Assembly (NCBI RefSeq): GCF_000935025.1
Contig: NZ_CP010836.1
Span: 1,736,001 to 1,800,000 of the forward strand
Source: Sphingomonas hengshuiensis
GTDB lineage: Bacteria > Pseudomonadota > Alphaproteobacteria > Sphingomonadales > Sphingomonadaceae
Direction of reading: 5' to 3'
Length of the DNA stretch: 64,000 nucleotides
Position numbers and translations under genes: made by a program. Shown in pieces: positions 27,894 to 50,274 of the stretch; the first letter of the stretch is position 1; the number at the start of each line of letters is the position of its first letter. Under the pieces are notes generated by a model, which worked only from the letters and a program-made list of their open reading frames with translations, ran no database searches and was not told where the DNA came from.

Positions 27894-29330
27894 ATGGCGA
27901 TTGCCCCCGTGGCTACGGCCTCTGAGCTGACCAGCGAGCGCAGCATCGGCGACTCGATGGCCGAGGCCCAGCAGGCGCCGCGTCCAGCGCGGGTCTGGCC
28001 CTCCACCGGCTCGGCCTATTGGGCGCTCAGCGTCATTATCCTGGCGACGTTCCTGACTTTTTTCGATCAGGTCGTGTTCGGTATGCTGGCGCAGCGGATC
28101 AAGGCCGATTTCGGCCTGACCGATTCGCAGCTCGGCTTTCTGGCGGGCCCGGCGAGCATCATCTGCTATCTGTTCGTCGGCATTCCGCTGGCCCGGCTCG
28201 CCGATATCTATCCCCGCAAATATGTCCTGGGCGGCGGTGTCGCCGTCATCGGACTCATCACCGCGCTGGGTGGGATCGCGCAGACCTTCACCCAATTCGT
28301 CGGCACGCGCATCTTCCTGGCAGCGGGGGGATCGGCGCACGCGCCCTCGGCCTATTCGCTGCTCGCCGATGCCTTCCCGCCGCGCACGCTGACGCGCGCT
28401 TTCGCGCTGCTGCAATTCGGCTTTATCGGCGGCACCACGCTTGGCCCGATCATCGGCGGCCAGCTGATCGGCATGACCGCGCAATGGGCGCCGACCGAAT
28501 GGCTGGGCCTGCGCATCTTCGGCTGGCAATGGATCATGATCTGGGTCGGGCTGCCGGGCGTGCTCGTCGCCTTGCTGTTTCTCACCGTCAAGGAGCCACC
28601 GCGGGTCGCGCCGCTGGCAGGCGCGGCCCCGCCGCCACGCGATGTGCCGGTCGGGAGGCGCATCCTGACCTTTACCGGGTTCGATGCGGTCAAGGCGATC
28701 CACGCCAAGCGCCGCGTCTATTATCCCTTGTTCGCCGGCCTGGCGCTGAGCGCGGTCGAGACCTTCGGGCTGCAATTCTGGCGCGTGCCGTTCATGATCC
28801 GCAGTTTCGGCTGGAGCGAGGCGCAGATCGGCGCGGTGATGGGCACCATGTTTCTCGTCGCCTCGCTGCTCGGCCTGATGCTCGGCGGCATCTTCGTCGA
28901 ATGGATGGCCAAACGCTACAAGGACGCCAATGTGCGCGCGGCCGCGATCATTTTCTGCTGCACCACATTGTGCGCGATTACCGCGCCGCTGATGCCCAAC
29001 GGCTATCTGGCGCTTGGCGTCATGGCGCTCGGCGCGATGTTCGGGATTGCCGGCGCGGTGCCGCAGAATGCCGCCATCCAGCGTGTCGCACCCAATTCGA
29101 TGCGCGGGCAAGTCACCGCCGTCTATCTGTTCATGTTCACCTTTTTCGGCGCGATGGGCAGCTTCGTCGTCGGGCTGGTGCAGGATCTGGTGATCGGCGT
29201 GGAAGCCGATCTGTGGAAAGCGCTAGTGCTGACCGCGACTATCCTGTTGCCGCTCGCCACCCTGTGCATGGTGCGCGCGATCCGGCCGTACCGCGAAGAG
29301 GTCGAAAGACTGGAAGCCCTCGGCCGCTGA
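27894..29330 (+). CDS. MFS transporter
   Basis: 478-residue major facilitator with about 12 membrane helices and a 35-residue polar N-terminus. The FDQVVFGMLAQRIKADFGLTDSQLGFL start and GIPLARLADIYPRKYV loop are typical of spinster-like/organic acid MFS carriers. ATGAGGA precedes the ATG. As first gene of the catabolic region it probably imports an aromatic substrate or intermediate across the inner membrane; the substrate is inferred from context only. Confidence 0.85.
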   Translation: MAIAPVATASELTSERSIGDSMAEAQQAPRPARVWPSTGSAYWALSVIILATFLTFFDQVVFGMLAQRIKADFGLTDSQLGFLAGPASIICYLFVGIPLARLADIYPRKYVLGGGVAVIGLITALGGIAQTFTQFVGTRIFLAAGGSAHAPSAYSLLADAFPPRTLTRAFALLQFGFIGGTTLGPIIGGQLIGMTAQWAPTEWLGLRIFGWQWIMIWVGLPGVLVALLFLTVKEPPRVAPLAGAAPPPRDVPVGRRILTFTGFDAVKAIHAKRRVYYPLFAGLALSAVETFGLQFWRVPFMIRSFGWSEAQIGAVMGTMFLVASLLGLMLGGIFVEWMAKRYKDANVRAAAIIFCCTTLCAITAPLMPNGYLALGVMALGAMFGIAGAVPQNAAIQRVAPNSMRGQVTAVYLFMFTFFGAMGSFVVGLVQDLVIGVEADLWKALVLTATILLPLATLCMVRAIRPYREEVERLEALGR

Positions 29331-29952
29331 CCAGCCGCCATCCCAACAGGGCAGCCGCACTGCGGACACCAACGCAGGACACAGGCGCTTGATAGGGTCG
29401 ATGCCGACCGTATCGCGACGCCTGAAAAATTCCTGGGGATTTTCTCCGCCGATGATCGTGCGGGGATCACGGTTCGGGGGCAGTTTCCCCCGGCAGGGGC
29501 GTTGCAACCATGGCAGCGCCTGCCCACCGCAGTCGAAGCGAACGCGGCAACGGTAGCGCACATGCGCGCCGGGAACGGCACGCCATGGCCGCGTACCGAT
29601 ACGCAGCGCTGGCCATTATAGTCAGCGTCGCCGCGCCTATCCTTGATCAAAGAAGCCTTTGCCCGATCGCGCGTGCCCCGGGCGAAGATCGTATCGATCC
29701 TGTCGCTTTCGCCCGTCGCCGGGCTGATGCGCGCAAGACGTGCGCAGCATTGCCGCGACGCGCAAAGCCCGTCGTTACGGTGTCGCCACGAACCTAGCAG
29801 TGCTCATGGGGGTAGTTTTGCTACTTCTTGTCCGCTCCGAAACTGTATGCCTAAGTCACAATCGACACGCCAAAGCGCGGTCAAAATCGGAGGCCACGAT
29901 CCGTCAAAAGGATCGGGCCTGCTGGCCATTCGGCCATTAGGGAGAGGATTCG
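29331..29952. other. Intergenic region upstream of the TonB receptor
   Basis: About 620 bases without a credible gene. The last part leads into the receptor gene and holds a short hairpin (CGATCC 29897-29902 with GGATCG 29910-29915) and the ribosome site GGGAGAGG. No clear promoter boxes. Confidence 0.4.
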
Positions 29953-32457
29953 ATGACTGCTTTCGAACGCACGCGCCGCATGGCGCGGCTGCTGGCTTCC
30001 GCCTCAGCACCGGCGCTGCTCATTGCCACGCCGGCTTTGGCGCAAAATGCGCCGCCCGCCCCCACCCCGCCCGCCGCGACGACGCCGACGGATCCCGCGC
30101 CGGAGAACGAACCCGAAGTTGGGTATGGCACGCAGGACATCGTCGTCACGGCGCAGTTCCGCCAGGAACGGCTGCAGGACACGCCGATCTCGATCACCGC
30201 AGTGAACGCCGCCGAACTGGAGGCGAAGAACCAGACCAATCTGGCGCAGGTCGCCGATGCGGCGCCCAACGTGTTGCTGAAGCCGCAGGGCGCCTCGTTC
30301 GGCCCGTCAATCTCCGCCTCGATCCGCGGCGTCGGCCAGAATGATTTCAATCCCGCCTACGAGCCGGGTGTCGGTATCTATATCGACGACGTCTATTATC
30401 CACAGCTGACAGGTGCGGTGTTCGACCTGCTCGATCTCGACCGCGTCGAGATTCTGCGCGGGCCGCAGGGCACGCTGGCCGGGCGCAACTCCGAAGGCGG
30501 CTCGATCAAACTCTACTCGAAGAAGCCGAGCGGCGAGAATGGCGGGTTCGTCGAGGCTTCCTACGGCTCGCGCAATCTTATCGCAGTGCGCGCCGCAGCC
30601 GATTTCAAGCTGACCGACACGCTGTTCGGGCGCATATCCGGCGTGTTCAAGCAGCAGGAAGGTTTTGTCGACCGGGTCGATTATGGCTGCGCCAATCCGG
30701 GCAGCGGGGTGGCGACCGATCGCTCGCCGGGCGATTGCGTCGTCAGCAAGCTCGGCGGCGTCGGCTATCAGGCGATCCGCGGCATGCTGCGCTGGCAACC
30801 CAATGATGCGATCGAAGTCAATCTGATCGGCGATTACACGCATGACGAGCATACCATCGCGGGCGAAGTGTTGCTCGCCACCAGCACGATCGATTCGCCC
30901 AATGTGAATGCCGCGCCGGGCGTGCCCTATGACAATCGCTTCATCTGCGGAAAATTCTGCAACTATCTCACGACGAGCCAGCCGGGCATCACGTTCAGCG
31001 CGCCACCGGTCGTCCCCGGCGCCAACGGCACCGTCCTGGCCTCCACCCGCGGCACCGATATCAGCCTGTACGACGGGTACGGCTTTTCCGGCCAGATCAG
31101 CTACAAGGTCAGCGATGCAATCACCCTGACCTCGATCACCGGCTACCGCGCGTTCGACACCAAGTTCGATTCCGATGACGATCTGTCGCCGGCCAACACC
31201 AATCTCGGGCGCAACCATCTCACCAACTGGAGCTTCAGCCAGGAACTGCGCGCCAACATCTCCCTCATGGACACGCTGAACTTCACGGTCGGCGGTTATT
31301 ACTTCAAGCAGAAATCGGTCTACGATTCGTACCAGGATCTGCGCTACGTACCGGTGTATCCGCTGCAATTCCGCCAGCCCGATCCGACCAATGCCGAAGC
31401 CAAGGCGGCCTTTGCGCATCTGGCGTGGAATCCAATGGAGAACATGACGGTCAGCGGCGGGCTTCGCTATACCGACGAAAACAAGCAGCAGACCTATTAC
31501 CGTCTGAATTACGACGGGACGGTCAACGGGTTCCTCGACCCGGTCGGCGCTGCCAATGGCATCGGATATGTCTCGCCGGACGGCACCGTCCGCGCCCTGT
31601 CGGGCACCACCGCCAGATATAGCGCCAACCGCGTCGATTATCGCGCTGCAGTGGATTACCGCTTCTCGCCCGCCTTGCTGGTGTACGGATCATTTTCGAC
31701 CGGCTTCAAGGGCGGCGGCAGCAACCCGCGACCGTTCAATGCCGCGCAGGTCATCGCCTTCCAGCCGGAATCGCTCAATGCCTATGAAATCGGCTTCAAG
31801 AGCGATCTGTTCGACCGCAAACTGCGCGTGAATGTTTCGGGCTTCATCAACGATTACAAGGATATCCAGATCCCGGTGCTGCAATGCCCGGGCGCGCCCT
31901 GCGCCGCGCGACTGAATGCCGGCAACGGGCGGATCAAGGGCTTCGAAGCGGAAGTGACCGCCTTCCCGTTGCCCGGCCTGTCGCTCGATGCCTCGCTCAG
32001 CCATCTGGCGTTCAAATATGATATCGATTCGCTCAACCCGTTGGCCACGTCGCCGACCGCAGGCGGGATCAACCCGGGTGGCGTCGATCCCAGCGATCCC
32101 CCCACCTCCCCGCCCTGGAAAGTCAGCGCGGGTGCGCAATATCGCGTCGAGATGGCCGATTTCGGCAGCCTGACGCCGCGCATCGATTATACCTATCAGG
32201 ATCAGCAGTTCACCGGTGCCTCGGTGATCAACGGCGCACGCGTGCGCAATTTCATCCCGTCCTACGCGCTGGTAAATGCCCGGCTGACCTGGACCAATGC
32301 GGGTGGCGACCTCGACATCTCGCTGCAGGCGCTGAACCTGCTCGACAAATATTACTTCCTCACCACGCTCGATCTGCGCGGCGCGGGCGGCGGCGTGCGC
32401 AAGGGCCGCCCGGGCGAGCCGCAGACGTTCGCCATCGCGCTCAAGAAGAAGTTCTGA
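29953..32457 (+). CDS. TonB-dependent receptor of the aryl-ether cluster
   Basis: 834-residue outer-membrane receptor. Signal peptide (ending TPALAQ), Pro-rich linker, TonB box DIVVTAQFR, plug domain with IRGVGQNDF and VEILRGPQGTLAGRNSEGG, then a 22-strand barrel ending in phenylalanine (ALKKKF). Such receptors import large or scarce substrates with TonB energy; in sphingomonads several take up lignin-derived aromatics. First gene of a run with two GSTs and an acyl-CoA synthetase, so an aromatic ligand is a fair inference. Confidence 0.92.
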   Translation: MTAFERTRRMARLLASASAPALLIATPALAQNAPPAPTPPAATTPTDPAPENEPEVGYGTQDIVVTAQFRQERLQDTPISITAVNAAELEAKNQTNLAQVADAAPNVLLKPQGASFGPSISASIRGVGQNDFNPAYEPGVGIYIDDVYYPQLTGAVFDLLDLDRVEILRGPQGTLAGRNSEGGSIKLYSKKPSGENGGFVEASYGSRNLIAVRAAADFKLTDTLFGRISGVFKQQEGFVDRVDYGCANPGSGVATDRSPGDCVVSKLGGVGYQAIRGMLRWQPNDAIEVNLIGDYTHDEHTIAGEVLLATSTIDSPNVNAAPGVPYDNRFICGKFCNYLTTSQPGITFSAPPVVPGANGTVLASTRGTDISLYDGYGFSGQISYKVSDAITLTSITGYRAFDTKFDSDDDLSPANTNLGRNHLTNWSFSQELRANISLMDTLNFTVGGYYFKQKSVYDSYQDLRYVPVYPLQFRQPDPTNAEAKAAFAHLAWNPMENMTVSGGLRYTDENKQQTYYRLNYDGTVNGFLDPVGAANGIGYVSPDGTVRALSGTTARYSANRVDYRAAVDYRFSPALLVYGSFSTGFKGGGSNPRPFNAAQVIAFQPESLNAYEIGFKSDLFDRKLRVNVSGFINDYKDIQIPVLQCPGAPCAARLNAGNGRIKGFEAEVTAFPLPGLSLDASLSHLAFKYDIDSLNPLATSPTAGGINPGGVDPSDPPTSPPWKVSAGAQYRVEMADFGSLTPRIDYTYQDQQFTGASVINGARVRNFIPSYALVNARLTWTNAGGDLDISLQALNLLDKYYFLTTLDLRGAGGGVRKGRPGEPQTFAIALKKKF

Positions 32458-32468
32458 CCGATCTCACC

Positions 32469-32498: not shown

Positions 32499-32511
32499 CG
32501 CTCAAGGAACG

Positions 32512-33291
32512 ATGATGGCGGAAACAGGTCGCGTGAAGCTGTATCATTGGGAGCCCAACGCCAATTCGGGCAAGCCGATGCTGACCTTGTTCGAAAAGGG
32601 CGTGGCGTTCGACAGCCACTATCTCGATCTGCTGGCGTTCGATCAGCACCAGCCGGCCTATCTGGCGGTCAATCCGCTCGGCACGATCCCGGCGATGACG
32701 CATGGCGATCGGGTGCTGACCGAATCCACTGCGATGATGGAATATGTCGATGATGCATTTGCCGGTCCACGGCTGATGCCGGCCGATCCGGTGGATGCGT
32801 GGCGCGTCCGCTGGTGGATGAAATTCATGGATCAGTGGCTCGCGCCGAGCTTCTCGATGATCGGGTGGAGCGTGTTCGTCGGCCCGTCGGTGCGGCAGCG
32901 CGATCCGGCCGAACTCGACGCGGCGATCGAGCGTATCCCGATGCCCGAGCGGCGCGTGGCCTGGCGCAAGGCGATCAGCGGCGCGTTCTCCGAGGAGGAG
33001 ATGACCGAATCGCGCCGCCGCGTGGCATCGGGCATCGGCTTGCTGGAGCAAGCGCTGGCGCAGCGCGAATGGCTTGGCTCGGACGCCTATAGTCTTGCCG
33101 ATATCAACGGCTTCAATCTCGCTTATGCGCTGCCGCTGTCGCAGCCCCAGCTCTCGAACGACACGCTGACGCCCAACATCATGCGCTGGCTCCGCGCGAT
33201 CTACGCCCGCCCGGCGACCAGGGCGTGCTGGGCCTTGGGCCGCACCGACATGGCCAGGCGCGTCACCATATTGGAGGGGGCCGCGGCATGA
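32512..33291 (+). CDS. Glutathione S-transferase, beta-etherase-like (first of a coupled pair)
   Basis: 259 residues. N-terminal thioredoxin-like domain (VKLYHWEPNANSGKPMLTLFEKG) with NPLGTIPAM and the glutathione-binding ES pair in LTESTAMMEYVDD; helical C-terminal domain with WLGSDAYSLADINGF. The layout and the long linker resemble the LigF family. AAGGA precedes the start. Its stop overlaps the next GST start (ATGA), suggesting a heterodimer or consecutive steps. Confidence 0.85.
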   Translation: MMAETGRVKLYHWEPNANSGKPMLTLFEKGVAFDSHYLDLLAFDQHQPAYLAVNPLGTIPAMTHGDRVLTESTAMMEYVDDAFAGPRLMPADPVDAWRVRWWMKFMDQWLAPSFSMIGWSVFVGPSVRQRDPAELDAAIERIPMPERRVAWRKAISGAFSEEEMTESRRRVASGIGLLEQALAQREWLGSDAYSLADINGFNLAYALPLSQPQLSNDTLTPNIMRWLRAIYARPATRACWALGRTDMARRVTILEGAAA

Positions 33292-34037
33292 CGACGATCC
33301 TGTATCACGGCGAACCCAATGGCCCGTCGCTGACCGTGCTGGCGGCCGCATTCGAGAAGCAGGTCGAGCTCACGCTCGAGCGGATCGATCTCGTCGCCGG
33401 CGCGCGCCACGCGGCGCCGGTGCCGCGCGCGATGGAAGTCGACCAGTCGATCGAGGGTGAGGGCCCCGTGCTCGTGGTAGACGGCGTGGCGATGGCGGAC
33501 AGCGTGTTCATCGCCTGCTATCTCGACGCGGTCGGTAGCGGTCCGGCGCTGCGCCCGGCGGATCCCTATGCTCGCTGGCAGATGATGGCGTGGTGCCGCT
33601 ATGTGATCGAACGGCTGGCGCCCGCCGCCGCCTATCTCGGGCTGGAACACAGCCCGCCCGCCGCGGTGCCCGCCGGCATCGCCAGCGTCGACCTGGCGGA
33701 ACGATGGCGCGATGCGGTGGAGGGCCGGTTCGATCCAGGCAAACTGGCCGACAGCCGGGCCAAGGTGACGCAGGCGATCGACAGGATCGCGGCGCAGCTG
33801 GCCGACGGGCGCGACTGGCTGATGGGGGATTTCAGCATCGCCGATCTCGAAACCTATGCCTGGCTGGCCGGCATGCCCGCGCTGCTGCCGGCAGCGTTCG
33901 AGGCAAGCCCGTCGACCACCGCGTGGCTGGCCCGCACCAAGGCGCGCCCCGCCGTCGCGCGCGCGCTGGCGCTGGCGTCGAGCCCGGCACCGGAATCGGT
34001 CTGGGCCCCTGGCCCTGAAATCAATCGGTGGGGGTGA
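33288..34037 (+). CDS. Glutathione S-transferase-like protein (second of a coupled pair)
   Basis: 249 residues, distantly related to the preceding GST: TTILYHGEPNGPSLTVLAAAFEKQVELTLERIDL at the start, a DS pair (MADSVFIACYLD) where ES is usual, and WLMGDFSIADLETYAWL in the C-terminal domain. Start ATG 33288 overlaps the first GST; the preceding GGAGGGG is a good ribosome site. It may be the non-identical subunit of a heterodimeric beta-etherase like BaeA/BaeB, or a glutathione-removing partner. Confidence 0.75.
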   Translation: MTTILYHGEPNGPSLTVLAAAFEKQVELTLERIDLVAGARHAAPVPRAMEVDQSIEGEGPVLVVDGVAMADSVFIACYLDAVGSGPALRPADPYARWQMMAWCRYVIERLAPAAAYLGLEHSPPAAVPAGIASVDLAERWRDAVEGRFDPGKLADSRAKVTQAIDRIAAQLADGRDWLMGDFSIADLETYAWLAGMPALLPAAFEASPSTTAWLARTKARPAVARALALASSPAPESVWAPGPEINRWG

Positions 34038-34038
34038 G

Positions 34039-35601
34039 ATGCGATCGATCGACTATTTCGACCGCGGGCACGATCTCGATCCGCATCGCCCCGCGCTGAT
34101 CGACGTCGCGAGCGACGAGCGGCTGACCTTCGCCGAAGTCAAGCTCCGTACCGAACGGATCGCGGCGGCACTATATGCCGCCGGCTTCGCCAACCAGCAG
34201 CCGATCGCGCTCTATGGCACCAACAGCGCGGCGATCATGATCGCGTTGCTCGCGATCTGGCGCGCCAACGGCATCTGGGTGCCGGTCAACACGCGCAACG
34301 CGGTCGATGCCAACGCCGCCTATCTCAATTATGTGCGCTGCAAGTGGATGTTCTATCATTCCAGCATGGCCACCGATGTCGCCGCGCTGCGCCAGGCAGT
34401 GCCGACGCTGACCAGGTTCGTCTGCCTCGATCGCGCGCTGGGCGAGGATCCGTCGCTGGAGGAATTCGTCGCCACGACGGGCGGCACGACGCTGCCTGAT
34501 TTCTCCGATCCGTTCGGCGCGCCGGACGACGTCGTCGGCCTGTTTCCCACCGGGGGCACGACCGGCCCGTCCAAGGGCGTGGTGGTGACCAACAGCGGCT
34601 GGGGCACGATGTTGGAGACGCTGGGCACTGCGGTGGCTGGCAAGACCGACGATCCGGTGTCGCTGGTAGTTGCGCCGATCACGCACGCCGCCGGTCCGGT
34701 CGCGCTGGGGACGCTGGCGCTGGGCGCGACTCAGGTGATCCTGCCGGGCTTCGACGCGGCGCAGGTGCTGGAGACGATCGCCGCGCACCGCGTGACGCAC
34801 ATGTATCTGCCGCCCACCGCGTTGTACGTCCTGCTCGGCGCGCCCGAGCTAGGCCGCCACGATGTCTCCTCGCTGCGCTTCTTCATCCTGGTCGGATCGC
34901 CCGTATCGCCGGAGAAGCTGCGCCAGGCGGTCGAGGCGTTCGGGCCGTGCATGTGCCAGGCCTATGGCCAGGTCGAATCGCCGATGATCACCACCTGGCT
35001 GCCGCCCGAAACGGTGGCCGCCGCCGCCGCGGGGGTGCATCCCGAGCGACTGGCCAGTTGTGGGCGCCCGACGCGATCGGTGCAGGTGGCGATCATGGAC
35101 GATGCCGGCGCGCTGCTGCCCGATGGCGAACGCGGCGAGATCGTGGTGCGCGGCCTGCTGGTATCGAAGGAATATTTCGACCTGCCCGATGCGACGGCGG
35201 AGGCCCGGACCTTCGGATGGCACCATACCGGCGACGTCGCCTATCGCGACGCGCACGGCTTTTTCTACATCGTCGATCGCAAGAAGGACATGGTGGTGAC
35301 CGGCGGCTTCAACGTCTTCACCGCCGAAGTCGAAGCGGCGGTGACCGAATTGGCGGAGGTCCGCGAATGCGCGGTGATCGGCGTGCCGCACGAAAAATGG
35401 GGCGAAGCCGTGCACGCCATCGTCGTCGCCGACGGGATCGATGCGGCGACGATCATCGCCCATGCCAAGGCGCGGCTCGGCGGGGTCAAGGCGCCCAAGA
35501 GCGTGACCTTCGTTACCGAAATCGCACGCACTCCGGCGGGCAAGATGGATAAGAAAGCGCTGCGTGCCGATCATTGGCGCGGCGATCGGCTGGTCAATTA
35601 A
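34039..35601 (+). CDS. Acyl-CoA synthetase (AMP-forming)
   Basis: 520-residue ANL-family ligase that activates a carboxylic acid as AMP ester, then CoA thioester. Motifs: P-loop FPTGGTTGPSKGV, YGQVES, HHTGDVAYRD, DRKKDMVVTGGFNVF and C-terminal PKSVTFVTEIARTPAGKMDKKAL. GGGGTGAG precedes ATG 34039, one base after the previous stop; the longer frame runs inside the GST gene and is rejected. Substrate probably an aromatic or propanoid acid from ether breakdown (inferred). Confidence 0.92.
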   Translation: MRSIDYFDRGHDLDPHRPALIDVASDERLTFAEVKLRTERIAAALYAAGFANQQPIALYGTNSAAIMIALLAIWRANGIWVPVNTRNAVDANAAYLNYVRCKWMFYHSSMATDVAALRQAVPTLTRFVCLDRALGEDPSLEEFVATTGGTTLPDFSDPFGAPDDVVGLFPTGGTTGPSKGVVVTNSGWGTMLETLGTAVAGKTDDPVSLVVAPITHAAGPVALGTLALGATQVILPGFDAAQVLETIAAHRVTHMYLPPTALYVLLGAPELGRHDVSSLRFFILVGSPVSPEKLRQAVEAFGPCMCQAYGQVESPMITTWLPPETVAAAAAGVHPERLASCGRPTRSVQVAIMDDAGALLPDGERGEIVVRGLLVSKEYFDLPDATAEARTFGWHHTGDVAYRDAHGFFYIVDRKKDMVVTGGFNVFTAEVEAAVTELAEVRECAVIGVPHEKWGEAVHAIVVADGIDAATIIAHAKARLGGVKAPKSVTFVTEIARTPAGKMDKKALRADHWRGDRLVN

Positions 35602-35624
35602 ACCGACGAAATGAGGGGATGACG

Positions 35625-40550: not shown

Positions 40551-40575
40551 GATTATCCTCTCCTGTTATCGTTGA

Positions 40576-41475: not shown

Positions 41476-41566
41476 TTTGCTCGCGCTTCGGCGGTTGGCG
41501 TCGCAGAATGATCGGGGGCAGACTAGACAGGTCGATGTGACATCATTGGAAGTAACTGGATAACCC
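41476..41566. promoter_or_regulatory. Divergent control region between BKACE operon and XRE regulator
   Basis: 91 bases between divergent genes. GATGT-G-ACATC (41534-41544) is a short perfect inverted repeat placed to control the regulator gene and possibly the BKACE operon. No convincing -35/-10 pair was identified. Confidence 0.4.
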
Positions 41567-42475: not shown

Positions 42476-44115
42476 CCGAGGATCAGGTCGCTGGCGCGTT
42501 CGGCGATCATGATCGTCGCGGCATTGGTATTGCCCGAAACGATCCGCGGCATGATCGATGCGTCCACCACGCGCAGCCGCTCCACGCCGTTGACGCGCAG
42601 CTCGGGATCGACCACCGCCGCCGGGTCCGCGCCCATCCGGCACGTACCGACGACATGATACAGCGTCGATCCGGCAACCTTGGCATAGCCCAGCATCGAT
42701 TCGTCGGTGTCGCCGAACGGATCGTCGGGCGAGGCGAGATAGGGCGTGATCGCCGGCTGCTGCATCACCCGGCGGATCAGCTTCACCTGCGCCACCGCGA
42801 CTCGTTGGTCGATCGGATCGGACAGATAATTGGGCACGATCACCGGATACACGCTGGCATCGCCGGATTTGATATGGATATGGCCGCGCGATTCGGGCCG
42901 TACCTGGCACGGCGTGCAGGTCACCCCCGGCGTCCGCTCCAGATCGAACGCCTGCTCGTCATTCTGCTTCTGCAGATCGACCGAGGCGGCCATCAGATGC
43001 AATTGCACATCGGGACTGGCGAGGTCGGGCCGCGTCCTGGTGAAGGCGACGACATGCGCCACGGCATAGCTGAGCAGCCCCTTGCGGGTCAGCGCATATT
43101 TGGCGACTTCGCGCGCCAGCCCCCAGCCATGCGCCATCTGGTTGACGGTACGGTGCCCGGGCTTCACCGGCCATTGCGCGCCGATCATATAGTGATCCTG
43201 CATGTTCTCGCCGACACCGGCGGACTCGTGCACCAGCGGGATGCCGTGCTCGCGCAGCAGCGCGCCCTGCCCGATGCCGGACAATTCGAGCAGCTTGGGG
43301 GATTCGACCGCGCCCGCCGCCAGGATCACCTCGGCATGCGCGCGCGCCCGGACGATCCGCCCGCGCTGTTCGAATTCCACGCCGATCGCGGTCTTGCCGT
43401 CGAACAGCACGCGCCGGGCATAAGCGCGCGTCTCGATGCGCAGATTGGCGCGCCCCTCGACCGGATGGAGATAGCCCACCGCAGTCGAGCAGCGCCGGCC
43501 GTTCCTGGTGGTGAGCTGGAACCAGGTCACACCTTCCTGATCGCGCGCGTTGATATCGGGGGCATAGGGAATGCCCGCTTCGACACAGGCATCAAGCAGC
43601 GCCTGGCTGACCGCGTTGCGCTCGGGAAAGTCGCAGGTGTTGAGCGGCCCGCCGCTGCCATGCGTGTCGCAGGCGCCGCGCTCCTGATTCTGCGCGCGGC
43701 GGAAATAGGGCAGCACATCGTCATACGACCAGCCCCGGCAGCCCATCTGGCCCCAGCCGTCATAATCCTCCACCTGCGCGCGAATATAGAGCAGCCCGTT
43801 GATCGACGACGACCCGCCGAGGACCTTGCCCTTGGGCCATTTGTGCACGCGGCCCTCGGTCCCGGCATCAGGCTCCGTTTCATACATCCAGTTGACCTTG
43901 GGATCGTTCAGCGTCTTGCCGAAGCCGATCGGGGTCTGGATCATCAGGTTGGACAGGAACTGGCCGGGATCCTTGAACGGCCGATCGTCGCCCCCCGCCT
44001 CCAGCAGCAGCACGCGGTTGGAGGGATTGGCGGACAGCCGATTGGCGAGCACGCAGCCCGCGCTGCCGGCACCGACGATGATGTAATCGGCCTCGATATC
44101 GAATCCTTGGGTCAT
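42445..44115 (-). CDS. GMC-family FAD-dependent alcohol oxidase/dehydrogenase
   Basis: 556 residues of the choline dehydrogenase type. FAD loop VGAGSAGCVLANRLS (from residue 15), KVLGGSSSINGLLYIR, and the active-site pair in YHVVGTCRMG and SGNTNAATIMIAE (His and Asn). ATG 44115 overlaps the preceding stop (ATGA). In Sphingobium SYK-6 a GMC enzyme (HpvZ) oxidises the primary alcohol of beta-hydroxypropiovanillone; position here next to beta-etherase genes suggests the same job. Confidence 0.9.
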   Translation of the reverse strand: MTQGFDIEADYIIVGAGSAGCVLANRLSANPSNRVLLLEAGGDDRPFKDPGQFLSNLMIQTPIGFGKTLNDPKVNWMYETEPDAGTEGRVHKWPKGKVLGGSSSINGLLYIRAQVEDYDGWGQMGCRGWSYDDVLPYFRRAQNQERGACDTHGSGGPLNTCDFPERNAVSQALLDACVEAGIPYAPDINARDQEGVTWFQLTTRNGRRCSTAVGYLHPVEGRANLRIETRAYARRVLFDGKTAIGVEFEQRGRIVRARAHAEVILAAGAVESPKLLELSGIGQGALLREHGIPLVHESAGVGENMQDHYMIGAQWPVKPGHRTVNQMAHGWGLAREVAKYALTRKGLLSYAVAHVVAFTRTRPDLASPDVQLHLMAASVDLQKQNDEQAFDLERTPGVTCTPCQVRPESRGHIHIKSGDASVYPVIVPNYLSDPIDQRVAVAQVKLIRRVMQQPAITPYLASPDDPFGDTDESMLGYAKVAGSTLYHVVGTCRMGADPAAVVDPELRVNGVERLRVVDASIMPRIVSGNTNAATIMIAERASDLILGQETPVALAS

Positions 44116-44990
44116 GCTGGCCTCGCGGTTTTGCTGAAATAGGCGATGGCGCGGAACTCGTAGCTCTCGCGCGTCACCGCATCGGGGCGGCTGGAGTCGT
44201 GAAAGGCGGTGTGCGGCGCGCGCCAGGCGCGCGCATGATCGCTGTCGTGAAACTTGATGAAGATGACCTCGTCGGCGGTCATGTCCGGGAAATACCACCA
44301 CCGATGCGCCGGATTGTGATGGAAGATGGTCGCCGCCATCATCTCGTCCTCGCCCGGAATCGGCGCGAACAGCGCGTCCCCGGTCGGGATCTCGTCGACA
44401 TCGACCTTGACGTTGGCGACGGCATCCTCGTCCCCCACGCTGCGGAAATCGCACAGCGCCAGCGGCCAGTCCTGCGGCGGCGCGGAGAAGGTGCGCCACA
44501 GGCTGAAGGCGATGAAGCGATCATAGCCCAGCCCGTCCGGCGCCGCCGTATCGTACAGCCGGCGCGCGAGCTTCTGCGCGCTCCGCGTATTGAAATCGAC
44601 ATGCGCCTCGGCGGCAGGGGGCTGGATGCCCGTGCCGGAAATCACCGGCGAGCGCAGTTGCCCGCCCATCGGCACGACCAGATCGGCGCCGGTCAGGCGC
44701 TGCGTGATGGCGATCACCTCGGCGGGATAGCCGCCCAGCGCATCGGCATCGCGGAAATCGCGGATCGCGCTTGGCTGCGACGACAGGCAGAAGCCGTGCG
44801 TGTCGAGCGTGATCGGCTCCTCGGCCCGCCGCGCGTTGCGGATCGTCACCGGATACGGCCGGTATTGGCCGGTATTATATTCCTTGCCGGGCGCCCAAAA
44901 GCGCCGGTTGATCGTCGATGTCGGGATCAGATAGTCGATCACTGCGTCGATTGCGTCTGCAGCGCGGCTTGGTGCCAGCTTCGCCATCAT
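44112..44990 (-). CDS. CmcJ/NvfI-family putative oxygenase
   Basis: 292 residues resembling the CmcJ/AsaB/NvfI family, whose members include non-haem iron, 2-oxoglutarate-type enzymes and proteins of unknown activity. RPYPVTIRNAR, the HVDFNTRSAQKLA block and WRTFSAPPQDWPLALCDFRSV fit; HxD (HVD) could be part of an iron site. GAGGAG lies before a double ATG at 44990. The gene sits between a thioesterase and the GMC gene; its step in the pathway is not obvious. It could act on methoxyl or side-chain carbons, which is speculation. Confidence 0.75.
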   Translation of the reverse strand: MMAKLAPSRAADAIDAVIDYLIPTSTINRRFWAPGKEYNTGQYRPYPVTIRNARRAEEPITLDTHGFCLSSQPSAIRDFRDADALGGYPAEVIAITQRLTGADLVVPMGGQLRSPVISGTGIQPPAAEAHVDFNTRSAQKLARRLYDTAAPDGLGYDRFIAFSLWRTFSAPPQDWPLALCDFRSVGDEDAVANVKVDVDEIPTGDALFAPIPGEDEMMAATIFHHNPAHRWWYFPDMTADEVIFIKFHDSDHARAWRAPHTAFHDSSRPDAVTRESYEFRAIAYFSKTARPA

Positions 44991-44998
44991 CGCTCTCC

Positions 44999-45418
44999 TC
45001 AGGCGAACAGGTTCCGCACCGCATCCGGCACGCGTTCGGCCTTGAGCCCGCCCGGCCGGTCCGCCGCCGGCACGGTCCACACGCGCGTCTCGGTACATTC
45101 CACGCAGATCCGGCCATCGAGCGAGATGCGGTGCTGTATCGTGAAGCTGCTATTGCCGAATACCGGCGCGGCGGTGTCGACCGTCACCTCGTCGCCATAG
45201 CTGCACGTCGACAGGAAACGCGCGGCGACATCCACCATGGGATAGCCCGCGACCTCCATTTCGCGCAGCATATCGCGCTTCTTGGGCAGGCCCGCCGCTT
45301 CGAACAGCCGGATCGTGTTTTCGCCGCAGATATCCAGGAAGCGCGGCGCATAGACGATGCCGGCGGGATCGCACTGGCCCCATTCGATGCGCACGATGCG
45401 GGTGAAGAACGGCGTCAC
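44999..45418 (-). CDS. 4-hydroxybenzoyl-CoA-type thioesterase
   Basis: 139-residue hotdog-fold thioesterase. The catalytic aspartate D17 lies in WGQCDPAGIVYAPRFLD, the classic 4HBT motif. The start is a GTG (45418) overlapping the upstream GST stop (GTGA); longer frames run antisense within the GST. It would hydrolyse an aroyl-CoA to the acid, complementing the BKACE enzyme. VceB of Sphingobium is reported to have that role (recalled, not checked). Confidence 0.87.
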   Translation of the reverse strand: MTPFFTRIVRIEWGQCDPAGIVYAPRFLDICGENTIRLFEAAGLPKKRDMLREMEVAGYPMVDVAARFLSTCSYGDEVTVDTAAPVFGNSSFTIQHRISLDGRICVECTETRVWTVPAADRPGGLKAERVPDAVRNLFA

Positions 45419-46101
45419 GCGAGGATATTCTTGCCTTGCGCCACGGTCTTTTCCGCCATCTCCTCGGGCTTGGGCGGTTCGGGCACGAGCAGGCCGCGCT
45501 GCACCGCGGGGCGCGCGGCGATCGCGTCGAACCAGCGCTGGAGATGCGCGAACCCCTCCATCGGCACCTGCGCCCAATCATGCCCGCGCACCCACGGGAA
45601 GCAGGCGATGTCGGCGATCGAATAGTCGCCGGCGAGATACTCGTGCGCTGCCAGATGCGTGTCCATCACGCCGAACAGCCGCTGGCTCTCGCGCACATAG
45701 CGATCGATCACCTTGGGCAATTTGTCCTCGAAATAGCGATTGAACACGGTCGCCTGGCCCATCATCGGCCCCAGCCCGGACATCTGCCACATCACCCACT
45801 GGATCACGCGGCTGCGCCCGGCGACGTCGCTCGGCATGAAGCGGCCGAATTTCTCCGCCAGATAGATCAGGATCGCGCCCGATTCGAAGATCGCGAAGTC
45901 GCCGGCGTCATGATCGACCCCCGCGTCATGATCGATCAATGTCGGGATGCGGCCGTTGGGATTGAGCGCGACATACCAATCCTCCTTCTGCACGCGATTG
46001 GTGAGCGAGATCGGCGTGACCTTGTAGGGCACCTCCAGCTCCTCGAGCAGGATCGCCACCTTCCAGCCATTGGGGGTTTCGGATGTCAACAATTCCAGCA
46101 T
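45415..46101 (-). CDS. Nu-class-like glutathione S-transferase
   Basis: 228 residues. N-terminal domain MLELLTSETPNGWKVAILLEELEVPYKV with LNPNGRIPTLID and the FESGAILIYLAE glutathione motif; the TPNGWKV segment marks the YfcG/YghU/Nu class. A Nu-class GST of Novosphingobium aromaticivorans removes glutathione in the beta-aryl ether route, so this may duplicate the LigG-like enzyme with a different stereo-preference. GGAGAGG precedes ATG 46101. First gene of the minus-strand operon with the thioesterase. Confidence 0.87.
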   Translation of the reverse strand: MLELLTSETPNGWKVAILLEELEVPYKVTPISLTNRVQKEDWYVALNPNGRIPTLIDHDAGVDHDAGDFAIFESGAILIYLAEKFGRFMPSDVAGRSRVIQWVMWQMSGLGPMMGQATVFNRYFEDKLPKVIDRYVRESQRLFGVMDTHLAAHEYLAGDYSIADIACFPWVRGHDWAQVPMEGFAHLQRWFDAIAARPAVQRGLLVPEPPKPEEMAEKTVAQGKNILA

Positions 46102-46369
46102 GTTCAGGCCTCTCCCGGGCATCGGCGCACCTTCGCGGTGGTCCGTCCCCGCCGCCGATCAAGCAAAGTCGCGGCGCTTCGGCAAGACGAGTGGCGGCGC
46201 TATCATTGCCACTGACAGGTTGGCGACGCGGTCGGCGGCACCGGTTAGTCCGGCTGATAGTATAGCCAGACGACTTGCAGGCAGCGCGCCCGCCCGTCAC
46301 CAACCGCAGCAACGCACAATCGTGCGACCCGATCGGGATCACCCCCGATCAGCACGCCATGGAGAGACT
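46102..46369. promoter_or_regulatory. Divergent intergenic region between two aryl-ether operons
   Basis: 268 bases between the Nu-GST operon and the ligF-like operon. It must hold promoters for both. An AT-richer spot with GATAGTATAGCC lies near 46255; no unambiguous promoter boxes or operators identified. Confidence 0.4.
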
Positions 46370-47125
46370 ATGCTGACCCTGTACAGCTTTGGCCCCGCCG
46401 CCAATTCCCTGAAGCCGCTGCTCGCGCTGTACGAAAAGGGCCTCGATTTCACGCCGCGCTTTGTCGATCCGACGCGGTTCGAGCATCATGAGGATTGGTT
46501 CAAGCAGCTCAATCCGCGCGGCCAGGTGCCGGCGCTGGATCATGACGGGCATATCATCACCGAATCCACCGTGATCTGCGAATATCTGGAAGACGCGTTT
46601 CCAGACTGCGCGATCAAGCTGCGCCCGGCCGATCCGATCCGCATCGCCGAAATGCGCGTGTGGACCAAATGGGTCGACGAATATTTCTGCTGGTGCGTCT
46701 CGACGATCGGCTGGGAACGCATGATCGGGCCGATGGCGCGCGCCTATTCGGATGCGGAGTTTGAGGAGAAGATGGCGCGCATCCCGATTCCCGAGCAGCA
46801 GGCCAAATGGCGCGCTGCGCGTGCCGGCTTCCCCAAAGCCACGCTCGATGAGGAGATGCGCAAGATCGGCGTCTCGGTGGCCAAGCTGGAGGCGCGGCTG
46901 GCCGAAAGCGAATGGCTCGCCGGGCCCGACTACACGCTGGCCGACATCTGCAATTTCGCCATCGCCAATCGCATGCAGCACGGCTTTGCCGAACTGGTCA
47001 ACACCGCGGCGACGCCGCATCTGGTGGCCTGGATCGACCGCATCAACGCGCGGCCGGCGGCGCAGGCCATGTTCGCCCAGTCGAAGAGCGAGATGCCCGC
47101 CCCCCGTCCCGCAGCCGCAGCTTGA
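46370..47125 (+). CDS. ligF: LigF-like beta-etherase (glutathione S-transferase)
   Basis: 251 residues. Cleaves the beta-aryl ether bond of C-alpha-keto dimers by glutathione attack. It shares long blocks with Sphingobium SYK-6 LigF as I recall that sequence: LYSFGPAANSLKP, ALYEKGL, NPRGQVPAL, TESTVICEYLED and RVWTKWVDEYFCWCVSTIG, plus the C-terminal YTLADICNFAIAN and WIDRINARPA. GGAGAG lies just before ATG 46370. First gene of ligF-ligE-ligG-aldehyde dehydrogenase. Confidence 0.9.
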   Translation: MLTLYSFGPAANSLKPLLALYEKGLDFTPRFVDPTRFEHHEDWFKQLNPRGQVPALDHDGHIITESTVICEYLEDAFPDCAIKLRPADPIRIAEMRVWTKWVDEYFCWCVSTIGWERMIGPMARAYSDAEFEEKMARIPIPEQQAKWRAARAGFPKATLDEEMRKIGVSVAKLEARLAESEWLAGPDYTLADICNFAIANRMQHGFAELVNTAATPHLVAWIDRINARPAAQAMFAQSKSEMPAPRPAAAA

Positions 47126-47135
47126 GGCGCCCGAC

Positions 47136-47966
47136 ATGACCGACCGACACAGCGTCACGCTCTACGATCTCAATCTCGCCTCGGGCTGCACGATCAGCCC
47201 GTTCGTGTGGCGCACCAAATATGCCCTCGCCCACAAGGGGCTGGCGATCGACATCGTGCCCGGCGGCTTCACCGGCATCCTGGAGCGCACCGGCGGCCGA
47301 TCGGAGCGACTGCCGGCGATCATCGATAACGGCGAATGGGTGCTCGATAGCTGGCTGATCGCCGAATATCTCGACGGCAAATATCCGGAGAGGCCGCTGT
47401 TCGAGGGGCCGAGCATGAAAGTACTGACCAAATTCATCGATCAATGGCTGTGGCGCACCGCGATCGGCCCGTGGTTCCGCTGCTACATCCTCGATTATCA
47501 CAATCTCTCCTACCCGCACGATCACGATTATATCCGCACCACGCGCGAGACGATGTTCCTCGGCGGGCAGAAGCTGGAAGACGTGCAGGCCGGGCGCGAG
47601 GAGCGGCTGCCGCTGGTGCCGCCGTTGCTCGAGCCGCTGCGGCAATTGCTGCGCGATACGCCGTGGCTGGGCGGCGATACGCCCAATTATGCCGATTATT
47701 GTGCGCTGGCGGTGTTCCTGTGGACCGCATCGGTCGCGACCACGCCACCACTTACCGACGACGATCCGTTACGCGACTGGCTGGATCGCGGCTTCGATCT
47801 ATATGATGGTCTGGGGCGCCATCCGGGCATGCATTCGCTGTTCGGACTGCAGCTGCGCGAGGGCGATCCCGCGCCGTTTCTGAAAGCCGGGATCGGCACC
47901 GCGCCGGCGCCGGTCAATCGCGGCGCGGGGACCACGCCGTTCCCCGAACCGGCCAGGGCGGCCTGA
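47136..47966 (+). CDS. ligE: LigE/LigP-like beta-etherase (glutathione S-transferase)
   Basis: 276 residues. Beta-etherase for the opposite stereoisomer to LigF. Recalled LigE blocks are present: TLYDLNLASGCTISPFVWRT, PGGFTGILERTGGRSER, VLDSWLIAEYLDGKYP, GPWFRCYILDYH, FLGGQKLEDVQAGREERLP and LFGLQLREGDP. LigP is a close paralogue, so E versus P cannot be settled by eye. ATG 47136 lies 10 bases after the ligF stop. Confidence 0.9.
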   Translation: MTDRHSVTLYDLNLASGCTISPFVWRTKYALAHKGLAIDIVPGGFTGILERTGGRSERLPAIIDNGEWVLDSWLIAEYLDGKYPERPLFEGPSMKVLTKFIDQWLWRTAIGPWFRCYILDYHNLSYPHDHDYIRTTRETMFLGGQKLEDVQAGREERLPLVPPLLEPLRQLLRDTPWLGGDTPNYADYCALAVFLWTASVATTPPLTDDDPLRDWLDRGFDLYDGLGRHPGMHSLFGLQLREGDPAPFLKAGIGTAPAPVNRGAGTTPFPEPARAA

Positions 47967-47984
47967 TCGCATGAGGAGCAAGGC

Positions 47985-48806
47985 ATGAGCTGGAGCGAAG
48001 AACCCGCCGGCGGCACGCTCCGGATGTACCATATTCCGGGCTGTCCGTTCAGCGAGCGGGTCGAGCTGCTGCTCGATCTGAAGGGGCTGCACGGCGCGAT
48101 GGCCGATCACGTCATCGATATTTCCAAGCCGCGCCCCGATTGGCTGCTGCGCAAGACGCGCGGCACCACCGCGCTCCCCGCGCTGGAGCTGGAAAACGGC
48201 GAGACGCTGAAGGAGAGCATGGTCATCCTGCGCTATTTCGAGGATCGCTTTCCCACGCAGCCGGTGGCGCGCGCCGATCCGTACGAACATGCCGTGGAGG
48301 CGATGCTGTGCGCCACCGATGGGGCCTTTACCGGCGCTGGCTATCGCATGATCCTCAATCGCGATCCGGCGCAGCGCGACGCGTTGAAGGCCGAGGTGGA
48401 TGCGCAATATGCCCGGCTGGACGATTTTCTGCGCCATTATGCGCCCGATGGCGATTTCCTGTTCGATCGCTTCGGCTGGGCCGAAGTGGCGTTCACGCCG
48501 ATGTTCAAGCGGCTGTGGTTCCTCGACTATTATGAGGCCTATACGGTGCCACAGCAGCTCACCCGGGTGCTGCGCTGGCGCGAGGCGTGCGTGTCGCATC
48601 CGGTCGCGCAGGCGCATCACAGCCATCGCGAGCTGATGACGCTCTATTATGATTACAGCCAGGGCGGCGGCAACGGCAAGATTCCGGAAGGCCGCAGCGT
48701 CTCCAGCTTCACGCTCGATCCCGCCTGGGACACGCGCCCGATGCCGCCGCGCGACAAATGGGGCGCGCCCGCCACCGATGCCCAATTGGGCCTGATTCCC
48801 GCCTGA
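47985..48806 (+). CDS. ligG: LigG-like glutathione lyase (omega-type GST)
   Basis: 273 residues. LigG removes glutathione from the thioether left by the beta-etherases, releasing beta-hydroxypropiovanillone. The omega-class catalytic cysteine is C20 in HIPGCPFSERVELLLDLKG; further LigG-type blocks are ISKPRPDWLL, KESMVILRYFEDR, FGWAEVAFTPMFKRLWFLDYYE and YDYSQGGGNGKIPEGRS. GAGGAG precedes the ATG. Confidence 0.9.
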   Translation: MSWSEEPAGGTLRMYHIPGCPFSERVELLLDLKGLHGAMADHVIDISKPRPDWLLRKTRGTTALPALELENGETLKESMVILRYFEDRFPTQPVARADPYEHAVEAMLCATDGAFTGAGYRMILNRDPAQRDALKAEVDAQYARLDDFLRHYAPDGDFLFDRFGWAEVAFTPMFKRLWFLDYYEAYTVPQQLTRVLRWREACVSHPVAQAHHSHRELMTLYYDYSQGGGNGKIPEGRSVSSFTLDPAWDTRPMPPRDKWGAPATDAQLGLIPA

Positions 48807-48828
48807 CCCCTTCCCAAAGGACAAACCG

Positions 48829-50274
48829 ATGAACAATTATCCGCAGCATTATATCGATGGCGCCTGGGTCGACAGCAAGGGCGGCCGCACCCACACCGTG
48901 ATCAACCCTGCCACCGAAGGCCCGGCCAGCGAGATCACGCTGGGCACCGCCGCGGATGTCGACGCCGCGGTGATCGCCGCGCGCCGCGCGTTCGAGAGTT
49001 TCTCGCAGACGAGCAAGGCCGAGCGCATCGCGCTGCTGCAGCGCATCACCGAGGAATATGCCAAGCGCATCCCCGACATCGCCGAGGCAATCGCGATCGA
49101 AATGGGCTGCCCCATCTCGATCGCCAAGACCGCGCAGGCCGGCTCCGGCATGGGCCATCTCGGCAACGCGCTGAAGGCGCTGGAGGCCTATAACTTCCGC
49201 GAGAAGATCGGCGACAACACGGTGGTGCGCGAGGCGATCGGCGTGGTCGCGCTGATCACGCCGTGGAACTGGCCGATGAACCAGATCGTCGCCAAGGTCG
49301 GCCCGGCGCTCGCCGCCGGCTGCACGATGATCCTGAAGCCATCGGAAGAAGCGCCGAGCTCGGCGGCGATCTTCGCCGAGGTGATGCATGCGGCGGGCGT
49401 GCCGGCCGGCGTGTTCAATCTCGTCCAGGGGGATGGCGCCGGAGTCGGCACCGCGCTGGCGCAGCATCCCGATATCGACATGATCAGCTTCACCGGATCG
49501 ACCCGCGCCGGCATCATGGTCGCCAAGAATGCCGCCGACACGGTCAAGCGCGTGGCGCAGGAACTGGGCGGCAAATCGCCCAACATCATCCTCGAAGGCA
49601 CGCCGCTCGACAAGGCATTGCCCGGCGGCGCGGGCGGCGTGCTGCTCAATTCGGGGCAGAGCTGCATCGCGCCGACGCGCATGCTGGTGCATCGCTCGCA
49701 GCATGACGAAGCCGCGCAGAAGGTTGGCGCGATGTTCGACGCCAAGAAGGTCGATGCGCCGCTCACCGAGGGCGATCATATCGGCCCGGTGGTGAATGAG
49801 AGCCAGTGGAACCGCATCCAGGGCCTGATCCAGCAGGGCATCGACGAAGGCGCCACGCTGGTCGCGGGCGGCACCGGCCGGCCCGAGGGCAAGGAGCATG
49901 GCTTTTATGTCCGGCCGACGGTGTTCGCTGATGTCACACCTGACATGACGATCGCCAGGGAGGAGATTTTCGGACCGGTACTGGTGATCATGCCCTATGC
50001 CGACGATGCCGAGGCGGTGAAGATCGCCAACGACACGCCCTACGGGCTGGGCGCCTATATCGCCGGCGATCCGGCGCGCGCCAAGACGATCGTGCCGAAG
50101 ATCCGCGCCGGCGCGGTGTTCGTCAATGCCGGCGGGCTGGCGTTCGACATGCCGTTCGGCGGCTACAAGCAATCGGGCAATGGCCGCGAGTTCGGCAAGT
50201 TCGGGCTCGAGGAGTTCCTCGAGGTCAAATCGGTGATCGGCGCGCTGCCCGAAGACGATCTGGTCGCCGCCTGA
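48829..50274 (+). CDS. Aldehyde dehydrogenase
   Basis: 481-residue NAD(P)-dependent aldehyde dehydrogenase. Catalytic C279 in NSGQSCIAPTR and E245 in ELGGKSPNII; the cofactor loop is FTGSTRAG. Last gene of the lig operon, 22 bases after ligG. It would oxidise the aldehyde made by the GMC enzyme to the beta-keto acid that BKACE then cleaves. Several sphingomonad dehydrogenases can do this step. Confidence 0.92.
   Translation: MNNYPQHYIDGAWVDSKGGRTHTVINPATEGPASEITLGTAADVDAAVIAARRAFESFSQTSKAERIALLQRITEEYAKRIPDIAEAIAIEMGCPISIAKTAQAGSGMGHLGNALKALEAYNFREKIGDNTVVREAIGVVALITPWNWPMNQIVAKVGPALAAGCTMILKPSEEAPSSAAIFAEVMHAAGVPAGVFNLVQGDGAGVGTALAQHPDIDMISFTGSTRAGIMVAKNAADTVKRVAQELGGKSPNIILEGTPLDKALPGGAGGVLLNSGQSCIAPTRMLVHRSQHDEAAQKVGAMFDAKKVDAPLTEGDHIGPVVNESQWNRIQGLIQQGIDEGATLVAGGTGRPEGKEHGFYVRPTVFADVTPDMTIAREEIFGPVLVIMPYADDAEAVKIANDTPYGLGAYIAGDPARAKTIVPKIRAGAVFVNAGGLAFDMPFGGYKQSGNGREFGKFGLEEFLEVKSVIGALPEDDLVAA

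Follow-up and report, generated by a model that had tools for sequence, protein, structure and literature searches.

Bacterial cleavage of the β-O-4 bond, the most frequent linkage in lignin, is a route for lignin use, and in the model strain Sphingobium sp. SYK-6 the genes for it are dispersed. PMC7691349 describes ligD-ligF-ligE-ligG of SYK-6 as an operon; apart from it lie the genes for HpvZ, the BKACE protein, a CmcJ-thioesterase pair, LigL, LigN/LigO and the putative LigP and LigQ. Compact clusters of Novosphingobium sp. MBES04 and PP1Y have been published (PMC4609964 and PMC7691349), and the latter source gives a layout of a Nu-class glutathione S-transferase (GST) gene next to ligFEG for both. 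Here we describe a window of 64,000 nucleotides from Sphingomonas hengshuiensis (bases 1736001–1800000; the genome has 5.23 Mb and consists of two contigs) in which the stretch 27894–50274, of about 22,000 letters, is considered, with a probability of about 0.8, to be a chromosomal catabolic cluster for β-O-4 (arylglycerol-β-aryl ether) lignin dimers. A first-pass annotation of this DNA had called the equivalent SYK-6 steps scattered; this holds for the remaining genes but not for the ligDFEG operon, with which the SYK-6 coordinates agree.

The cluster is real and conserved, although patchily distributed. One LigE scan of genome contigs gave 29 loci; since an exact 8-residue match was required, the scan undercounts, and the LigE of SYK-6 itself was missed. 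Most of the right half of the cluster is present in eight of the 29 loci (L009, L010, L011, L013–L016 and L035), as well as in the Sphingomonas genome G018 and on plasmids of Sphingobium sp. V4 and Novosphingobium sp. RL4. Relatives span Novosphingobium, Sphingobium and Sphingomonas, and much the same gene order in other genera indicates that the cluster is more than a chance assembly. Within the genus, LigE was found at 1e-50 in four of 295 genomes, the present one included. The V4 locus (L121, NZ_CP081002.1) lies on a 1.25-Mb megaplasmid typed as conjugative, and its stretch has no ligE between ligF and ligG; the RL4 locus (L122, NZ_CP141945.1) lies on a 1.82-Mb megaplasmid typed as non-mobilizable. 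The patchiness of LigE and the two plasmid relatives make horizontal transfer likely in the history of the cluster, and possible for this copy.

Lig-type glutathione S-transferases and Cα-dehydrogenases

Genes were called from lists of open reading frames (ORFs), codon-position GC and family matches; start codons are chosen positions. Every gene type named in the first-pass annotation is present. The genes ligF (46370..47125, +), ligE (47136..47966, +) and ligG (47985..48806, +) are contiguous, as it had claimed, and its two Cα-dehydrogenase candidates, GMC oxidase, BKACE, thioesterase and aldehyde dehydrogenase were recovered by family and PDB-sequence matches. Missing from it were an overlapping pair of GST genes (GST1/GST2, 32512–34037), an acyl-CoA ligase, a pyrroloquinoline quinone (PQQ)-dependent dehydrogenase, an amidohydrolase, a CmcJ-like gene and an XRE-type regulator.

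The best PDB matches of the window LigF, LigE and LigG were the SYK-6 proteins (351, 473 and 398 bits, with runners-up at 72, 50 and 68 bits). The SYK-6 genes for LigF, LigE, LigG, LigO and LigL were identified through peptides that match the PDB chains exactly. In a maximum-likelihood GST tree of 67 rows, which carried a long-branch warning for some outgroup joins, the window LigF fell into the SYK-6 LigF clade (support 100/99; 65% identity), LigE into a clade with SYK-6 LigE and the gene at the LigP position (99/98; 73% to LigE) and LigG into the SYK-6 LigG clade (100/100; 68%). All three lie inside the SYK-6 Lig clades and not outside them, so that their assignment in the first-pass annotation stands. 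The active-site residues are also kept: LigF, the predicted β-S etherase, has the Asn-Ser pair (motif AANS) described for LigF in PMC6369299; LigE, the predicted β-R etherase, has Ser-21, SGCTISPFVWRTKY being aligned to SGCTISPYVWRTKY of 4yam (role of the residue from PMC4777856); and LigG, the putative glutathione lyase, has the Cys-Pro site (motif GCPF) named in PMC7691349.

The Lig-like enzymes may nevertheless have drifted in specificity, and the cluster might then act on other aryl-glycerol or aryl-propane compounds. An Agrobacterium enzyme of the LigE type does not perform the SYK-6 reaction (PMC11497285), LigE-like GSTs 37–39% identical to NaLigE were inactive (PMC6369299), and the route, as far as the publications consulted describe it, gives no role to the acyl-CoA ligase, the PQQ dehydrogenase or the CmcJ-like gene. 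However, the 73% identity of the window LigE to SYK-6 LigE is far over 37–39%, and the three Lig enzymes sit together with both dehydrogenases. We consider such a drift very improbable and retain β-aryl ether dimers as the predicted substrates.

The two dehydrogenases, of the short-chain dehydrogenase/reductase (SDR) type, are encoded in tandem on the minus strand. SDR-H (38725..39615, −) matched LigO (4ya6) with 350 bits versus 227 for LigD and 198 for LigL, and groups with SYK-6 LigO (support 94/96; 58% identity). SDR-I (39612..40550, −) matched LigL (4yae) with 245 bits and is 47–48% identical to SYK-6 LigL and to the gene at the LigN position; its group is supported by 88/87 and drawn open, SDR-I being nearest to neither LigL nor LigN, with a weak placing in the subgroup. 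According to PMC4858972, LigD and LigO act on α-R and LigL and LigN on α-S substrates; SDR-H is thus predicted to be α-R-specific and SDR-I α-S-specific, and together they would oxidise the two Cα isomers.

The Nu-class GST of the first-pass annotation is only partly borne out: a Nu-type GST gene is present (45415..46101, −), but its product is closer to YfcG-like chains (4eci, 269 bits) than to NaGSTNu (5uun, 122 bits). Its sister group in the tree is a pair (100/99) formed by the SYK-6 gene at 421791–422444, taken as LigQ, and another gene of the S. hengshuiensis genome at 4775422. An identity with NaGSTNu/LigQ was therefore ruled out. The gene is transcribed divergently from ligF, as is NmGST3 of MBES04, a Nu-class GST reported to be active on both glutathione conjugates (PMC4609964 and PMC7691349). 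We propose that the window protein is of the NmGST3 type by the place of its gene beside ligFEG, and that it would remove glutathione together with LigG, yielding β-hydroxypropiovanillone (HPV).

GST1 (32512..33291, +) and GST2 (33288..34037, +) overlap by 4 bp. The best PDB match of GST1 is LigF (154 bits, next 70); it forms its own clade beside LigF (100/99) and retains the Asn-Ser pair, as do all six rows of this clade. GST2, whose longer ORF gave no Pfam match at 1e-3, is a distant LigF relative (45 bits) in a separate clade (100/100), and in all seven rows of that clade the catalytic Asn is replaced by Pro (Pro-Ser). PMC6369299 describes BaeA (Asn14) and BaeB (Ala at that position) of N. 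aromaticivorans as a β-R etherase encoded by overlapping LigF-related genes clustered with LigF2. GST1/GST2 bear the marks of this heterodimeric etherase: the gene overlap, the LigF-related clades, and the Asn-Ser pair kept in one partner with the Asn lost in the other. A LigF2-like GST gene follows the amidohydrolase gene in G018 and in Sphingomonas sp. AR_OL41 (locus L016), the two being 79% identical to each other, in line with the same description; no such gene was found after the amidohydrolase in the window. The Pro of GST2, where BaeB has Ala, leaves some room for a LigF-related pair with another role, and the comparison was with a description of BaeAB; given the shared marks we regard this as unlikely and take the pair to be BaeAB-like. 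The β-S ether would then be cut by LigF and the β-R ether by LigE and the BaeAB-type heterodimer, with glutathione.

Side-chain enzymes and the slot between XRE and CmcJ

The product of the GMC oxidoreductase gene (42445..44115, −; PF00732/PF05199 for the longer ORF) shares 64% identity with that of SYK-6 1398067–1399785, the next SYK-6 paralogue reaching 43%. Ahead of that SYK-6 gene stand, in this order, a gene for a 355-aa Amidohydro_2 protein (1395318–1396385) and an ORF resembling those of the major facilitator superfamily (MFS). These neighbours fit the numbering of ligW2 (SLG_12810) and hpvZ (SLG_12830) given in PMC12997858, and the SYK-6 gene was accordingly assigned as hpvZ. On this assignment by neighbours, the window GMC protein is by sequence comparison the orthologue of SLG_12830.

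The aldehyde dehydrogenase gene (48829..50274, +; PF00171) follows ligG, and a homologue (79–89%) stands after ligG in 11 of 11 ligG-bearing relatives compared; none was found after ligG in L017 or in SYK-6. Its proposed substrate is vanilloyl acetaldehyde, and with the HpvZ-like oxidase it would convert HPV to vanilloyl acetate.

The BKACE protein (40576..41475, −; PF05853 for the longer ORF) is 73–74% identical to the product of SYK-6 2690059–2690937, and the hotdog acyl-CoA thioesterase (44999..45424, −) is 62% identical to that of 1358645–1359058, its sole SYK-6 match at 1e-3. They are candidates for VceA and VceB, respectively, and would lead from vanilloyl acetate via vanilloyl-CoA to vanillate, which would be passed to genes elsewhere in the genome. 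VceA is here presumed to be a BKACE protein.

Adjoining the thioesterase gene is that of a CmcJ/NvfI family oxidoreductase (44112..44987, −; NF041278 with 261 bits, cut-off 80), and in SYK-6 a 53% homologue likewise adjoins the thioesterase homologue. According to PMC11837543, an enzyme is still missing from the steps that lead from vanilloyl acetate to vanillate. No CmcJ homologue was found at the corresponding place in L015 or on the V4 plasmid, which argues against a strict need for CmcJ.

A second route from vanilloyl acetate, with the acyl-CoA ligase and the amidohydrolase as HpeE/HpeF- or CouO-like enzymes, was set aside. The amidohydrolase (37787..38659, +; PF04909) is 81% identical to the product of SYK-6 1379891–1380763, SYK-6 is without HpeF homologues (PMC9618137), and the protein is widespread among Sphingomonadales: of 8000 candidates scored, 7997 passed 1e-40.

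The place occupied by the GMC gene, between the XRE and CmcJ genes, could be read in 11 loci (the window, G018, L010, L011, L013–L016, L035, L121 and L122). An HpvZ-like GMC gene is found there in three, all of them Sphingomonas (the window, G018 and L016), and an MFS gene akin to the one in L016 in seven, with L016 holding both; L015 and L121 have neither, and L014 has its GMC gene (66%) elsewhere in the stretch. Two of the MFS genes were confirmed by Pfam. These loci bear on the possibility that the etherase half mainly makes HPV as a signal or an excreted product, with no growth on the dimer. MBES04 accumulates phenylpropanones, makes no use of them and is without hpvZ, according to PMC10866074, and an MFS gene without a GMC gene stands between XRE and CmcJ in 6 of the 11 readable loci. 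In the window, however, this slot holds the HpvZ orthologue, and BKACE, thioesterase and aldehyde dehydrogenase genes are present as well; we therefore find HPV as the end product quite unlikely here and prefer a catabolic function. Whether MFS or HpvZ occupies this slot could explain, in a way open to genetic testing, why HPV accumulates in some strains and is expected to be consumed in others.

The whole constitutes a compact set for a plausible route from β-aryl ether dimers to vanillate, comprising orthologues of SYK-6 LigF, LigE, LigG and HpvZ and the VceA and VceB candidates. The word complete, used in the first-pass annotation, is justified as far as vanillate; a LigB-family ring-cleavage gene lies 2.3 Mb away. 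VanA-type genes and, by eye, other ring-cleavage candidates also lie elsewhere in the genome. With HpvZ, the BKACE protein and the thioesterase all encoded in it, the compact set could be transferred to a production strain in a single piece.

The XRE regulator and a predicted operator

The regulator gene (41567..42475, +) encodes an XRE-type protein with an MLTR ligand-binding domain (PF13560, PF17765). Alignment of the promoters between the Nu GST gene and ligF (10 loci) and between the BKACE and XRE genes (9 loci) revealed a palindromic block in common, about TATCAyTnnnAgTrAcAGG. A position weight matrix (PWM) was built from 18 of the 19 aligned promoter sites. In the 64-kb window, the predicted operators 46199..46221 (+) of the Nu-GST-ligF promoter and 41539..41561 (+) of the BKACE-XRE promoter rank first and second, both being training sites; third is a further site in the Nu-GST-ligF promoter, 46239..46261 (−; 16.0–16.2 bits), which was outside the training set. 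A PWM made without Sphingomonas sequences gave the same three as the top sites in 64 kb and, in G018, a top four made up of the three counterparts and a site ahead of an MFS gene. Conversely, with a Sphingomonas-only PWM the two promoters ranked first and second in L010, L013, L014 and L015, and the BKACE-XRE site ranked first in L061. In the two plasmid loci, kept out of training, the same two promoters took the first two ranks in 40 kb.

Among the 29 loci scanned, both sites scored at least 20 bits in all seven with an XRE gene in the stretch, while none of the 22 without it had a site of at least 20 bits (highest 16.0). In S. canadensis the XRE gene is on another contig, and weaker sites (14–16 bits) stand before it and before the SDR-ligFE run. 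Genome-wide, an IUPAC pattern derived from the two window sites, which 41539 matches with 0 mismatches by construction, was found at four places with at most 2 mismatches, namely the two window sites and two others, and at 39 places with at most 3 mismatches, versus 14 for a reversed control. One of the other places, G000:C1:692980–692998, adjoins an ORF that by eye is transposase-like.

Both divergent promoters share the palindrome, which is strong only in loci with the XRE gene; this suggests a single regulon and is the new element of the analysis. A literature search with the terms used, covering open-access papers, turned up no XRE-type regulator of etherase genes. The XRE/MLTR protein would bind the palindrome in two promoter regions, that of its own gene, from which the BKACE-SDR operon diverges, and that between the Nu GST gene and ligF. 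The operons for the dehydrogenases, the etherases and the side-chain enzymes would in this way answer one effector. Alternatively, the palindrome might be an element of the promoters themselves or be recognised by a different regulator: many elements are conserved between promoters of orthologous genes, and the binding by XRE is a prediction. On the other side stand the palindromic form, the presence at two positions in one promoter and also in a second, dissimilar promoter, the absence of sites of at least 20 bits from 22 of 22 loci lacking XRE in the stretch, and the weak S. canadensis sites before both XRE and SDR-ligFE with XRE on a separate contig. We hold this alternative to be rather unlikely, yet the most serious of those considered, and continue with XRE/MLTR as the putative regulator. 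A bolder proposal joins two claims, that XRE/MLTR is a dedicated sensor of a β-aryl ether metabolite for the dehydrogenase, etherase and side-chain operons and that the CmcJ/NvfI-type protein is the enzyme missing between vanilloyl acetate and vanillate; it is doubtful in this combined form. The predicted operator provides a cheap test of gene switching.

Several points weigh against the interpretation as a dimer pathway under one regulator. Catalysis, transport and regulation are predictions from sequence, in distinction to orthology, gene order, overlaps, conservation and the motif, which were observed. The assignments of BKACE as VceA and of the thioesterase as VceB rest on family and reaction logic, since sequences and locus tags of VceA and VceB were not found in the literature consulted, and the thioesterase matched TIGR00051 with 27 bits, under the NCBIfam cut-off of 69. 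The Nu GST falls outside the putative-LigQ clade, a member of which sits at 4775422, and the BaeAB likeness was judged from the published description. As to the operator, six of the seven XRE loci belonged to the training set, and the remaining one (L035) closely resembles L010; in L009, whose contig ends before XRE, the expected site was outside the top 5 with the Sphingomonas-only PWM; and at the off-cluster sites 692980 (1 mismatch) and 946124 (2 mismatches) no pathway gene is visible. No operator-like site was found before TBDT1/GST1 (TBDT1 being the TonB receptor gene upstream of GST1) in the window, so that the bae half may be under other regulation.

Neighbouring genes and comparison with known systems

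The cluster begins with an MFS transporter gene (27894..29330, +; PF07690), possibly for uptake or export of aromatics; it is 60% identical to an MFS gene of SYK-6 (1392132–1393664) a few genes ahead of hpvZ, and a 72% copy lies near the hpvZ-like gene in L014. Next comes the TonB-dependent receptor gene TBDT1 (29953..32457, +; PF00593, PF07715), a candidate dimer importer, with homologues (42–75%) upstream of GST1 in G018, L057+L016, L056+L015, L122, L059 and L060. The receptor and the MFS protein would bring the substrate in, an import role that is a guess from family membership. GST2 is followed by an AMP-forming acyl-CoA ligase gene (34039..35601, +; PF00501 for the longer ORF), for which no NCBIfam model was over its cut-off among the best 25 of 104 models, and by a gene for a PQQ-dependent alcohol dehydrogenase with a C-terminal cytochrome c domain (35619..37781, +; TIGR03075 with 628 bits, above cut-off; PF01011 and PF13442 for the longer ORF). 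Within runs, genes overlap by 4–10 bp or are separated by less than 30 bp, which suggests four catabolic operons and the regulator gene. Scanning the window with Rfam and for tRNA genes yielded no matches.

Relaxase and MobC genes stand 0.5 kb left of the cluster, where the GC content is 0.55–0.61. A mobile island carrying the cluster was rejected, as the GC content of the cluster (0.654) is like that of the right flank (0.660) and near that of eight other genome stretches (0.66–0.69). The region 2191–27370, with genes for a TraG/TrwB-like coupling protein, a resolvase, a MobA/VirD2-type relaxase and MobC and with lower GC, appears to be a mobilisable element abutting the cluster. Within it, 15617–25450 looks like a defence island (type ISP restriction-modification protein of 1634 aa, HATPase-like, DUF3644 and AbiEii toxin-like proteins and a DUF6088/AbiEi partner). 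On the right side, at 50704–54818, a SapC-family gene lies beside that of a 1087-aa TonB receptor, and a second SapC homologue (50%) is found about 27 kb further on, in L082.

Compared with SYK-6, the window brings together counterparts of genes situated there at about 0.92, 1.36, 1.40, 2.69, 3.64 and 3.87 Mb: LigF, LigE and LigG (65, 73 and 68%), HpvZ (64%), BKACE (74%) and CmcJ (53%) beside the thioesterase (62%), with the dehydrogenases matching LigO and LigL. In the SYK-6 stretches examined, GST1/GST2 found best matches of at most 42%, and the acyl-CoA ligase and XRE were without a match. SYK-6 745000–764900 (L077) contains, within 8 kb, a LigF-like GST (42%), an SDR 46% identical to SDR-I, an aldehyde dehydrogenase (36%) and a PQQ dehydrogenase (40%), and is possibly a paralogous dimer locus.

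The MBES04 and PP1Y clusters resemble the window in the Nu GST gene divergent from ligF-ligE-ligG (PMC4609964, PMC7691349 and PMC6369299). In MBES04, the published data list SDR3 (α-R, GAM05523), four GSTs (GAM05529–05532, GST3 being GAM05529) and SDR5 (α-S, GAM05547). Judged by this numbering, SDR3 stands six accession numbers before GST3, as SDR-H does in the window, and this six-gene spacing equals that of the Novosphingobium loci compared. SDR5, 15 accession numbers after GST6, is not in tandem with SDR3, whereas the window dehydrogenases are; as tandem SDR3-SDR5 homologues are reported for six of nine other strains, this arrangement is not new. MBES04 is described in PMC10866074 as without hpvZ, whereas the window has the HpvZ orthologue within the cluster. 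In PP1Y, baeAB (AT11532/11540) and ligFEG (AT11650–11674) have close locus tags. The baeAB-ligF2 cluster of N. aromaticivorans shares the overlapping LigF-related GST pair (PMC6369299); its LigF2 is lacking at that place in the window but present in G018 and L016.

Two Sphingomonas counterparts, G018 and AR_OL41 (L016 with L057), carry the genes from TBDT1 to the aldehyde dehydrogenase in unchanged order, with 60–94% identity to the window. Unlike the window, both have the LigF2-like GST gene and additional sequence separating the amidohydrolase gene from that of SDR-H; AR_OL41 also has an MFS gene beside the GMC gene, and G018 an extra aldehyde dehydrogenase. Some 0.6 kb beyond the AR_OL41 cluster lies a gene of the RPE65/carotenoid-cleavage family (L016, 13781–15355), the type to which lignostilbene dioxygenases belong. 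The compact layout itself, then, is not new, as MBES04 and PP1Y precede it. The cluster is of the published kind, and its main departure from that kind is HpvZ in the XRE-CmcJ slot, to which the hypothesis of an XRE regulon is added.

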